Below are positions 1 to 10,972 of a stretch of 64,000 bases of DNA, piece by piece. How positions within the stretch are numbered: position 1 is the first letter of the stretch; the number at the start of each line of letters is the position of its first letter. Both the position numbers and the translations under genes were made by a program. The notes beneath the pieces are model-generated. The model made no database searches and was not told where the DNA came from. It was given only the letters and a program-made list of their open reading frames with translations. Source of the DNA: an uncultured Pelagibacteraceae bacterium (GTDB lineage: Bacteria; Pseudomonadota; Alphaproteobacteria; Pelagibacterales; Pelagibacteraceae); assembly GCA_902566785.1 (NCBI GenBank), contig CACFKI010000003.1:1-64000 (forward strand), given 5' to 3'.

Positions 1-151
1 ATGTAGCTATTATTTTATCATTTGGATATATCGGTTTAGGATTTATAACTGTTAGATTTGAAAAATTAAAATTTTTCATCGCTCTTGCGCAAGCACCTAT
101 ATTTTCGGATAATTGAGGTTTATGTAAAATAAATTGAATATTTTTAAACAT
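1..151 (-). CDS. trmJ: tRNA/rRNA methyltransferase, SpoU/TrmJ family, N-terminal part (runs off window)
   Basis: Reverse complement from ATG at 151 reads MFKNIQFILHKPQLSENIGACARAMKNFNFSNLTVINPKPIYPNDKIIAT..., a typical TrmJ N-terminus; not in the ORF track because truncated. Confidence 0.75.
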   Translation of the reverse strand, partial: MFKNIQFILHKPQLSENIGACARAMKNFNFSNLTVINPKPIYPNDKIIAT

Positions 152-1752
152 TAAAGACTAGCGGGCGCATTATCCTTAAACAATTTATAATCTAAACTAT
201 CTATAAGTGCTTTAAATGAAGCATCTATAATGTTTGGCGAAACTCCTATTGTAAACCAATTTTTTCCTTTAGAGTCAGTGCTTTCAATAGATACCCTTGT
301 AACTGCTTCTGTACCGGTATTTAAAATTCTAACTTTATAATCAACTAATTTTAAATCTTTCAAATACTGAGAGTATTTTGCGAGTTTGTCTACGTTATTT
401 CTAATTGCGTTATCTAATGCATGAACTGGGCCATTACCCTCTCCCTCACAAAGAATAATTTTTTTGTCTACCTCTAGCTGAGCTTTAGCGGAAGAAATTA
501 TATTTCCAGATTTATTTTTTTTTACACTAACATCATATTCGTTAATAGAAATAAATCTTGGAATTTCTCCCATGATTCTTCTTGCTAACAATTCAAACGA
601 AGCATCAGCCCCATCATAGCTATAACCAATAAACTCTCTATCTTTAACTTCCTCTAAAAGTTTTTTTATTTTAGGGTCATTTGGTTTAAAATTAATTCCA
701 ATTGCTTCAAGTCTAGAAACAATATTTGATTTTCCTGATTGATCAGAAACTACAATATTTCTTACATTTCCAACAAGTTCAGGTTTAATATGCTCATAAG
801 TCTTTGGATCTTTTTGAACTGCGGAAACGTGTAAGCCACCTTTGTGTGAAAAAGCAGCAGCGCCAACATAAGGTAAATGCTTATTGGGTTTTCTGTTTAA
901 AATTTCGTCTAATAATCTTGAACATTGTGTAAGTTGCTTGATATTTGCTTCATCAATACTAGTTTTGAAATTATTTCTAAAAGTTTCTTTTAAATGGAAA
1001 GTAGGAATAATTGACATTAAATTTGCATTACCACATCGCTCTCCTAAACCGTTTATCGTACCTTGGACATGTCTAACGCCAGAAATTACTGCTGCTAAAG
1101 AATTGGCTACAGCATTTCCAGTATCATTATGAGCATGAATACCTAGATTTTTTCCTGGAACAGTTTTGGAGACTTCATCAACAATTTCAGAAACTTCATG
1201 AGGCAATGTTCCTCCATTTGTATCACAAAGAACTATCCATCTTGCTCCATTATCATATGCTGATTTAATACATGATAATGAATATTCTTTATTATGTTTA
1301 AAACCATCAAAAAAATGTTCAGCATCAAACATAAATTCTTTTTTTTCTTTAACAAAAAGTTTTGTACTTTCTGAAATATTTTCTAAGTTTTCTTCTTTTG
1401 ATATTCCAAGGGCAACATCAACGTGGAAATCCCATGATTTTCCTACCAAACAAACTGAGGGGGTATTACTATTCAATATAGAAGATAAACCAGGATCATT
1501 TTCTGCACTTCTTCCAGCCTTTTTTGTCATTCCAAATGCAGTCATAATTGAATTATTTAACTTAATTTTTTTTTGAAAAAATTCAGTATCAGTTGGATTA
1601 GCTCCTGGCCATCCACCTTCAATATAATCAACACCTAAGGAGTCTAGGGCATGAGCAATTTTAATTTTATCATCAATTGAAAAATCTACTCCTTGAGTTT
1701 GAGCTCCATCTCTAAGTGTAGTATCAAATATAAATATTTTATCTTTCGTCAT
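151..1752 (-). CDS. cimA: (R)-citramalate synthase / 2-isopropylmalate synthase family
   Basis: FDTTLRDGAQTQGVDFSIDDKIKIA, HAHNDTGNAVANSLAAV, GLGERCGNANL motifs; 533 aa. Confidence 0.9.
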   Translation of the reverse strand: MTKDKIFIFDTTLRDGAQTQGVDFSIDDKIKIAHALDSLGVDYIEGGWPGANPTDTEFFQKKIKLNNSIMTAFGMTKKAGRSAENDPGLSSILNSNTPSVCLVGKSWDFHVDVALGISKEENLENISESTKLFVKEKKEFMFDAEHFFDGFKHNKEYSLSCIKSAYDNGARWIVLCDTNGGTLPHEVSEIVDEVSKTVPGKNLGIHAHNDTGNAVANSLAAVISGVRHVQGTINGLGERCGNANLMSIIPTFHLKETFRNNFKTSIDEANIKQLTQCSRLLDEILNRKPNKHLPYVGAAAFSHKGGLHVSAVQKDPKTYEHIKPELVGNVRNIVVSDQSGKSNIVSRLEAIGINFKPNDPKIKKLLEEVKDREFIGYSYDGADASFELLARRIMGEIPRFISINEYDVSVKKNKSGNIISSAKAQLEVDKKIILCEGEGNGPVHALDNAIRNNVDKLAKYSQYLKDLKLVDYKVRILNTGTEAVTRVSIESTDSKGKNWFTIGVSPNIIDASFKALIDSLDYKLFKDNAPASL

Positions 1753-1874
1753 TTAAATTTCCAGTGGGTTTTATCATCTTTATCCTCAATTAAAACTCCT
1801 TTGTCCTCTAATTCATCTCGAATTTTATCAGCCTTTACAAAATCTTTATTTTTTCTAGCATTATTACGATTCAT
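1749..1874 (-). pseudogene. cysS: C-terminal fragment of cysteinyl-tRNA synthetase in a different frame
   Basis: Reads MNRNNARKNKDFVKADKIRDELEDKGVLIEDKDDKTHWKFK*, a typical CysS C-terminus; its TGA overlaps the cimA ATG. Confidence 0.85.
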
Positions 1875-3090
1875 CTTCTGTAATTTTTAATTTCCTTTTT
1901 TTAAATTCATTCCATTTCTCATCACTTTCGTTTAAAAGGCCAATGAAGTTGCAGGCAGATACGAATATTTCTTTGTCTTTTAAAGAACCATTCTGAGATT
2001 TTTCATATAACTCGTGGAGCTTTGCTATATATCCAGGCGTATTTAAATCATCATATAGTGGAAATAAATATTCATCTGGTATTAAAATAGTTTTTCTTAT
2101 TTTTGTATAACTTTCGTACCATTTGTTTAAAGTTTTTTCACACTCAGACAAAAGATTATTGTTCCAATCTAACGGTTGTCTATAATGAGAACTTATCAGT
2201 GCGAGCCTTAGTACTTGACCATTAACTTTATTTTTAAAATCATCAATTTTTAATATATTGCCAAGTGATTTTGACATTTTTTCTTTTGAAATAGTTATAA
2301 ATCCATTATGAACCCAGTAATTGGCAAAAGAACTTTTATTACTTGAACATCTAGACTGGGCGATTTCGTTTTCATGATGGGGAAATATTAAGTCTCTACC
2401 ACCTCCATGTATATCAAATACTTCACCAAGTAATTTCTTTGACATTGCTGAACATTCAAGATGCCAACCCGGTCTACCCTTTCCCCAAGGTGAATCCCAA
2501 GCAGGTTCATTTTCAGATGATGGTTTCCATAAAACAAAATCCTCTGGGTTTTTTTTATTTTCAGATATTTCAACTCTAGATCCAGCAATAAGCTCATCTA
2601 AGTTTTTATTTGACAATTTTCCATAGTCTTTAAAATTTTTTACTTCAAAGTAAACATGGTTATTGCTTTCATAAGCGAAATTGTTTTTAATAAGCTGTTT
2701 TATCATTTCAAGCATTAAAGAAATATTTTCTGTTGCCTTCGGCTCAAATGTTGGGTTTTCACATTTTAAATATTTGCAATCTTCATGGAAAATTGATGTG
2801 ATCTTATTAGTAAGTTCGTTTATAGAAATTTTTTTTTCTATTGAGCTAGCAATAATTTTATCATCTATATCAGTAATATTTCTTACATAAGTAATTGCAT
2901 CTTTACCATATTTACATTTTAGGACTTTAAATAATATATCAAAAACTACTAACGGTCTTGCATTACCAATATGTGGATTATCATATACGGTAGGTCCACA
3001 GACATACATGCCTATTTTTTTTGGATTGATAGGATTAAATTTAACTTTTTCGTTACCTAAACTATTTGTTAAAAAAATATCTTTATTCAT
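1864..3090 (-). CDS. cysS: cysteinyl-tRNA synthetase, main fragment (C-terminus out of frame)
   Basis: YVCGPTVYDNPHIGNARP, GWHLECSAMS, FPHHENEIAQS, KEKMSKSLGN motifs; ends prematurely with KITEDES*. Confidence 0.92.
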   Translation of the reverse strand: MNKDIFLTNSLGNEKVKFNPINPKKIGMYVCGPTVYDNPHIGNARPLVVFDILFKVLKCKYGKDAITYVRNITDIDDKIIASSIEKKISINELTNKITSIFHEDCKYLKCENPTFEPKATENISLMLEMIKQLIKNNFAYESNNHVYFEVKNFKDYGKLSNKNLDELIAGSRVEISENKKNPEDFVLWKPSSENEPAWDSPWGKGRPGWHLECSAMSKKLLGEVFDIHGGGRDLIFPHHENEIAQSRCSSNKSSFANYWVHNGFITISKEKMSKSLGNILKIDDFKNKVNGQVLRLALISSHYRQPLDWNNNLLSECEKTLNKWYESYTKIRKTILIPDEYLFPLYDDLNTPGYIAKLHELYEKSQNGSLKDKEIFVSACNFIGLLNESDEKWNEFKKRKLKITEDES

Positions 3091-8573: not shown

Positions 8574-10076
8574 TTGATAGTACATAAAATAAAAGTTTAT
8601 CCATCTAAAAAGCATCTACCAAAAAAAAATCAACTTGCATGGAAAATAGCTGAAATTGCAAGTGATAATGCTAAATTAAATAAAGATGCTATAGAAATGG
8701 CAATCAATAGGATCATTGACAATGCATCAGTTGCGATTGCCTCTTTAAATCGTAAATCAGTTATTTCATCCAGAGAGATGGCTTTAAAGCATTCGAGAAA
8801 AAATGGAGCTACATTATTTGGTGTTAATAGCAAATTGAGATTTGATTGCGAGTGGGCAGCTTGGTCAAACGGGACTGCAGTAAGAGAACTTGATTTTCAT
8901 GATACGTTTTTAGCTGCAGATTATAGTCATCCTGGAGACAACATCCCCCCTTTATTAAGTGTGGCACAACAAAATAAAAAAAGTGGTTTAGATCTTTTAA
9001 AAGGGATAATTACTGCATATGAAATTCAGGTAAACTTAGTAAAAGGTATTTGTTTACACAAACATAAAGTTGATCATATAGCTCATTTAGGACCAAGTAT
9101 TGCTGCTGGACTGGGTACAATGTTAAGATTAAATACTGAAACAATATATCAAGCAATACAACAAGCTTTACACACAACTATATCAACAAGACAATCGAGA
9201 AAAGGTGAAATCTCAAGTTGGAAAGCTTATGCGCCTGCACATGCAGGAAAACTTGCGATAGAGGCGGTAGATAGAGCTATGAGGGGAGAAGGAGCGCCAA
9301 GTCCAATTTATGAAGGTGAGGATAGTGTAATCGCAAGAATTTTAGACGGTAAAAAGGCTTTATATAAAGTTCCATTACCTAAAAAAGGTGAAACAAAAAA
9401 AGCAATTCTTGAAACATATACAAAAGAATATTCTGCAGAATATCAGTCACAAGCCTTGATTGATTTAGCTAAAAAATTAAAAAGTAAAATAGAAAATTTA
9501 AATCAGATAAAAAAAATTGATATTTATACAAGTCATCATACTCATTATGTTATTGGTACAGGTGCAAATGATCCACAAAAAATGGATCCAAACGCAAGTA
9601 GAGAAACTTTAGATCACTCTATAATGTATATATTTGCTGTTGCATTAGAAGATGGAGATTGGCACCATGTCAAATCTTATTCTAGATCAAGAGCCAAAAG
9701 AAAAAGCACAATTAAAATATGGAGATCAATTAAAACTCATGAGGATAAAAAATGGACAAGAAAATACCACGATCCTAACCCTAAAAAGAAAGCATTTGGA
9801 GCAAAAGTGGTAATCACACTCAAAAATGGAAAAAAAATAACTGAACAACAAGACAGAGCTGATGCACATCCATATGGTTCAAGACCGTTTAAAAGAGAAA
9901 ACTATATAAAAAAGTTTTTAACTTTAACTGAAAACATTTTAGATACAAATGAAAGTAATAGATTTTTAAAAACAGTACAAAATATTAGAAAATTAAAACC
10001 AGGACAGTTGATAAAATTGAATATAGAAATAAAAAAAAATAAACTTAAAAATAATTTTAAAAAAGGGATATTTTAA
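8574..10076 (+). CDS. prpD: 2-methylcitrate dehydratase (MmgE/PrpD family)
   Basis: PrpD-like sequence ([44 protein letters not shown]); TTG start preceded by AGGAG; followed by prpB and prpC. Confidence 0.9.
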
Positions 10077-10972
10077 TGCATTTTATTGAAAAAGAACCTA
10101 GTCAAAAAAGGATAGATTTGAATGAAAAATTAAATTCAAATAAAATCTTAAGAGTTCCGGGTGCTTACAACCCTCTTACTGCAAAATTAATTGAAGAAAT
10201 AGGTTATGATGCAGTCTATGTTTCAGGTGGAGTTATGGCAAACGATCTAGGGTTTCCCGACATTGGATTAACAACTTTGCAAGATGTAAGTACAAGATCA
10301 TATTTAATCTCAAGAGTAACAAATCTTCCTACAATTGTAGACATAGATACTGGATTTAAATCATGTACAGAAACAATAGAAACCTTTGAAGAATTTGGAA
10401 TTTCAGCTGTTCATTTAGAGGATCAAATTGAAAGAAAAAGATGTGGTCATCTAGATAATAAAGAATTGATAACAAAAGATGCGATGGTTAAAAAAATTAA
10501 AGAGTGTGTTTCAGCAAAAAAAGATAAAAATTTTAAAATTATTGCTAGGTCAGACGCAAAAAGTGTTGAAGGTATAGACAAAATGATTGAAAGATGTAAA
10601 GCATACATAGATGCTGGTGCAGAGGTAATTTTTCCTGAAGCCTTAGAGGATGAAAAAGACTTTGAGAAAGTTAGAAAGGAGTTATCTTGCTACTTATTAG
10701 CAAATATGACTGAATTTGGTAAATCTAAATTATTTAATTACAAAGAATTAGAAAATTTTGGATATAATATAGTTATTTATCCAGTTACAACACAGCGATT
10801 AGCTATGAAAAATGTAGAAGATGGGCTCAGGGACATTTATAAGAATGGACACCAAAATAACATTATTGATAAAATGCAAACTAGGAAACGTTTATACGAG
10901 CTTGTTGATTACGAAAAATATAATAGTTTAGATGAAAAAATTTATAATTTTAGTTCAGAAGGTCATGAATGA
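10076..10972 (+). CDS. prpB: methylisocitrate lyase
   Basis: VPGAYNPLTAKLIEEIGYDAVYVSGG, VDIDTGF, HLEDQIERKRCGHLDNKEL. Confidence 0.93.
   Translation: MHFIEKEPSQKRIDLNEKLNSNKILRVPGAYNPLTAKLIEEIGYDAVYVSGGVMANDLGFPDIGLTTLQDVSTRSYLISRVTNLPTIVDIDTGFKSCTETIETFEEFGISAVHLEDQIERKRCGHLDNKELITKDAMVKKIKECVSAKKDKNFKIIARSDAKSVEGIDKMIERCKAYIDAGAEVIFPEALEDEKDFEKVRKELSCYLLANMTEFGKSKLFNYKELENFGYNIVIYPVTTQRLAMKNVEDGLRDIYKNGHQNNIIDKMQTRKRLYELVDYEKYNSLDEKIYNFSSEGHE

Follow-up and report, generated by a model that had tools for sequence, protein, structure and literature searches.

A 20-nucleotide gap, seen in a single draft SAR11 genome, separates the C-terminal domain of CysS from its reading frame

Some aminoacyl-tRNA synthetases are naturally split, as is the two-subunit LeuRS of Aquifex, and in such enzymes the split is fixed in the lineage. 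Bacterial CysS (TIGR00435; E. coli 1li5/1u0b, 3tqo) is composed of catalytic, helical and CysS_C domains. The cysS gene described here encodes the same three domains in the same order and, like the naturally split synthetases, uses two reading frames to encode parts of one synthetase. Unlike bacterial CysS, however, it is missing 20 nt ahead of the C-terminal domain, a loss that disrupts the reading frame in this assembly. The break also differs from a natural split in that it occurs in one draft only and removes roughly seven helix residues. A third point of comparison is the artefactual pseudogene. Among the documented origins of apparent pseudogenes, assembly error is a major one (PMC11017572), and singleton frame transitions validated by homologues have been judged to be mostly sequencing errors (PMC3711429). 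The present gene shares with these a private break in a conserved, essential gene, both fragments of which are intact and conserved, although a 20-nt loss outside a homopolymer is unlike their more usual single-base indel. The break most likely stems from an error in amplification or assembly, or from a recent mutation private to this genome, rather than marking a novel form of split enzyme.

The window (the whole stretch of DNA that was analysed, 64,000 nucleotides) is the start of contig C3 in a 939-kb SAR11 draft genome of 58 contigs that is estimated to be 78% complete. Its closest publicly named relatives are genomes of Pelagibacteraceae (SAR11) whose names mark them as single-cell isolates, their CysS sequences being at most 83% identical, and by analogy the window's genome is probably single-cell as well. 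One cysS was found in this 78% complete assembly, with no second, intact copy. The junction 30-mer had no match in viral contigs, a plasmid collection returned distant cysS genes only, and our search of the literature found no paper on SAR11 cysS frameshifts. The features of the locus are as follows.

3090-1864, minus strand: cysS main fragment, a 408-aa ORF that comprises the catalytic domain and the greater part of the helical domain; TAA stop at 1866-1864.
1874-1749, minus strand, +1 frame: cysS C-terminal fragment, a 41-aa ORF, MNRNNARKNKDFVKADKIRDELEDKGVLIEDKDDKTHWKFK, then stop.
1866-1876, minus strand: cysS junction, the GATGAATCGTAA region; 4 nt here, 24 nt in relatives.
151-1752, minus strand: cimA, citramalate synthase (TIGR00977, 646 bits); its ATG (1752) overlaps the TGA of the C-terminal fragment (ATGA).

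The whole cysS gene thus occupies 1749-3090; the preliminary description of this DNA located the tail and junction alone. It had reported a 408-aa CysS ORF stopping at KITEDES, with the usual C-terminus following in another frame, and both the sequence and the ORF listing bear this out, the listed ORF ending in KRKLKITEDES and a stop. The main fragment scores 444.3 bits against TIGR00435 (cut-off 340), which places it in the CysS family, and matches PF01406 with a complete catalytic domain. The C-terminal fragment matches the anticodon-binding family CysS_C (PF23493) at 33.4 bits, above the curated cut-off of 23, and aligns with residues 409-453 of a relative's CysS (E=2.4e-15). The tail is therefore the usual CysS C-terminus and no chance match. 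The catalytic and C-terminal anticodon-binding domains lie in different frames here, and the locus does not have the single continuous frame of a CysS gene.

Comparison with close relatives, as the preliminary description had proposed, gave the size of the missing piece. The main fragment is 82% identical to residues 1-407 of the relative P0001, and the tail from its R residue onward corresponds to residues 415-453 of relatives, with 87% identity to G181. In tblastn searches with three relatives whose CysS is 453 aa long, residues 1-407 aligned in one frame and residues 415-453 in a second; between the two pieces, seven relative residues were lost and one base was left. At the DNA level, the distance from the last shared D codon to the R codon of the tail is 24 nt in close relatives and 4 nt here. 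The protein and DNA alignments together confirm an apparent loss of 20 nt, a length of the form 3n+2, as had been supposed in preference to a one-base error. CysS is exactly 453 aa in 22/22 close relatives. The missing bases lie outside any homopolymer, and the DNA comparison with relatives revealed no obvious long direct repeat flanking the deletion.

We looked for the same break in a genus sample of 399 genomes, 302 of them with matching CysS, the weakest matches being checked separately. Among the matches listed, and the window's own genome aside, full-length carriers have one continuous cysS frame; the CysS of close relatives is likewise continuous, at 450-480 aa. None of the ~300 same-genus carriers seen has the break found in the window. 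Its confinement to one assembly among continuous relatives is the pattern expected of an artefact, whereas the split of a naturally split synthetase would be expected to be conserved across at least two genomes. Indeed, a continuous frame in close relatives had been named at the outset as the observation that would tell against the reported split.

Several other draft genomes from the genus carry cysS breaks of their own. There is one extra A in an A-run in G033, two A-run changes in G032 and one A-run change in G005. A recurrent, genus-wide break at the 3' end of cysS was considered and rejected, since the tail breaks of G033 and G032 are one-base A-run changes at other codons.

The pN/pS of the tail, ~0.16-0.33 in comparisons with most close relatives, resembles that of control pairs, and the share of residues unique to the window is similar in the tail (3/39) and the body (24/407). 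By both measures, relaxed selection on the tail was not seen relative to the closest relatives, which argues that the break is either recent or unreal. Either the tail was a coding sequence until very recently or, in the real genome, it still is. Such conservation fits a very recent mutation as well as an artefact, and taken alone it cannot separate either from a functional split.

The preliminary description had left two readings side by side, an artefact of assembly or mutation and a functional split CysS made by translational coupling, and it is the second that finds no support. A functional split would consist of the 408-aa body and a 41-aa peptide, produced from overlapping frames by termination-reinitiation or joined through +1 ribosomal frameshifting, and acting together. 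In its favor, the ATG at 1874-1872 does overlap the end of the upstream frame, as had been described along with the overlap of the tail's TGA and the cimA ATG, and the pN/pS of the tail is low. However, this low value is equally expected from a very recent or unreal break, and the seemingly split-specific signals have other origins. The tail ATG is an out-of-frame reading of GAT GAA codons that are also present in the intact relatives L043, L049, L052 and L057; cysS adjoins cimA in relatives as it does here, and the ATGA overlap between the two genes is common to nearly all of them. Both features are ancestral or incidental. No Shine-Dalgarno-like site stands at the usual spacing before the tail ATG (an AGGA lies 18 nt upstream), and RNA folding around the junction is no better than that of shuffled sequences (z 0.61). 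The frame transition is unconserved and comes with no RNA structure beyond the shuffles, so the locus does not look like a programmed frameshift either. Given also the absence of ~7 residues of the linking helix, the unshared break and the breaks in essential genes of comparable drafts, we regard a functional split as improbable. The narrower proposal, in which coupled translation of overlapping frames gives a recently split CysS whose body and 41-aa anticodon-domain peptide cooperate, is slightly less credible still.

A technical origin is the explanation that we favor, with moderate confidence. Under this explanation, the locus would be an ordinary single-copy SAR11 cysS from which 20 bases are missing where the last helical segment starts, in this draft only. 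A small deletion would have been introduced when the genome, uncultured and probably from a single cell, underwent whole-genome amplification or was assembled, and in the living organism cysS would be one continuous frame like that of its relatives. Loss of the C-terminal domain of the essential cysS would be costly to a cell. We favor an artefact of amplification or assembly because the break is unique, the gene is essential and single-copy, and sister assemblies contain demonstrated artefacts. Several observations weigh against it. A loss of 20 nt outside a homopolymer is unlike most artefacts of the other drafts, the remainder of the assembly is clean (one other break against 504 intact genes), and the single-cell origin of the genome is itself an inference. 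Furthermore, of the MDA chimeras in one study, only 11/475 joined segments in direct orientation <10 kb apart (PMC1855051).

The clean 20-nt loss in a clean assembly speaks instead for a real, private and recent deletion, which we consider possible, if clearly the less probable account. CysS would then end after 408 aa and have no C-terminal anticodon-binding domain; either the enzyme would work well enough or the cell would be sick, and the tail would be untranslated or irrelevant. The complete catalytic domain is consistent with this, as is the existence of the CysS homologue MshC, which is without a C-terminal domain (3c8z and 8hfm align only to P0001 residue 358). MshC does not charge tRNA, however, so its missing domain is weak support. 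The break falls within the final 10% of the gene, which also favors a real deletion over an artefact, as real truncating indels are enriched among 3'-end frame breaks (PMC3711429). On the other hand, no relative is without the domain except single drafts with evident errors, and the tail is still conserved. Were the deletion real, it would show that a streamlined cell can do without the C-terminal anticodon domain of CysS or provide it in trans. As matters stand, single breaks in the essential genes of draft SAR11 genomes should not be taken as evidence for split enzymes.

Finally, we took a census of frame breaks in four of these genomes, with 365-782 kb covered in each. In the window's genome, two genes (cysS and one short ORF) are broken against 504 intact; G181 has 0 against 447, and G206 has 2 against 546. 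In G240, seven break clusters, three of them in one gene, stand against 297 intact genes. Its rpoB and rpoC are both frame-broken near A- or T-runs (L179 at about 19069 and L180 at about 1541), which demonstrates that such drafts yield artefactual frame breaks in essential genes. Further breaks in this genome fall in L167 and L170, and the set provides a useful benchmark for artefact rates among drafts of this kind. The other break in the window's genome affects an ORF of ~101 aa near a T10 run (L278 at about 8361, contig C2).

Three further drafts have unusual cysS genes. In G116 (L232, contig C33), 11 conserved codons (33 nt) are lost in frame beside an AAATTT stretch. In G279 (L228, contig C18), ~125 catalytic-domain codons are lost in frame, such that IKSF is joined straight to DIHGGG; the predicted product cannot be a working enzyme, and the loss is probably a deletion artefact. 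Contig C12 of G315 (L230) contains two cysS genes, at 286-1635 and 9102-10274, that lie ~9 kb apart and are identical over 391 residues, the second being shortened; this duplication is probably a misassembly or an amplification chimera.
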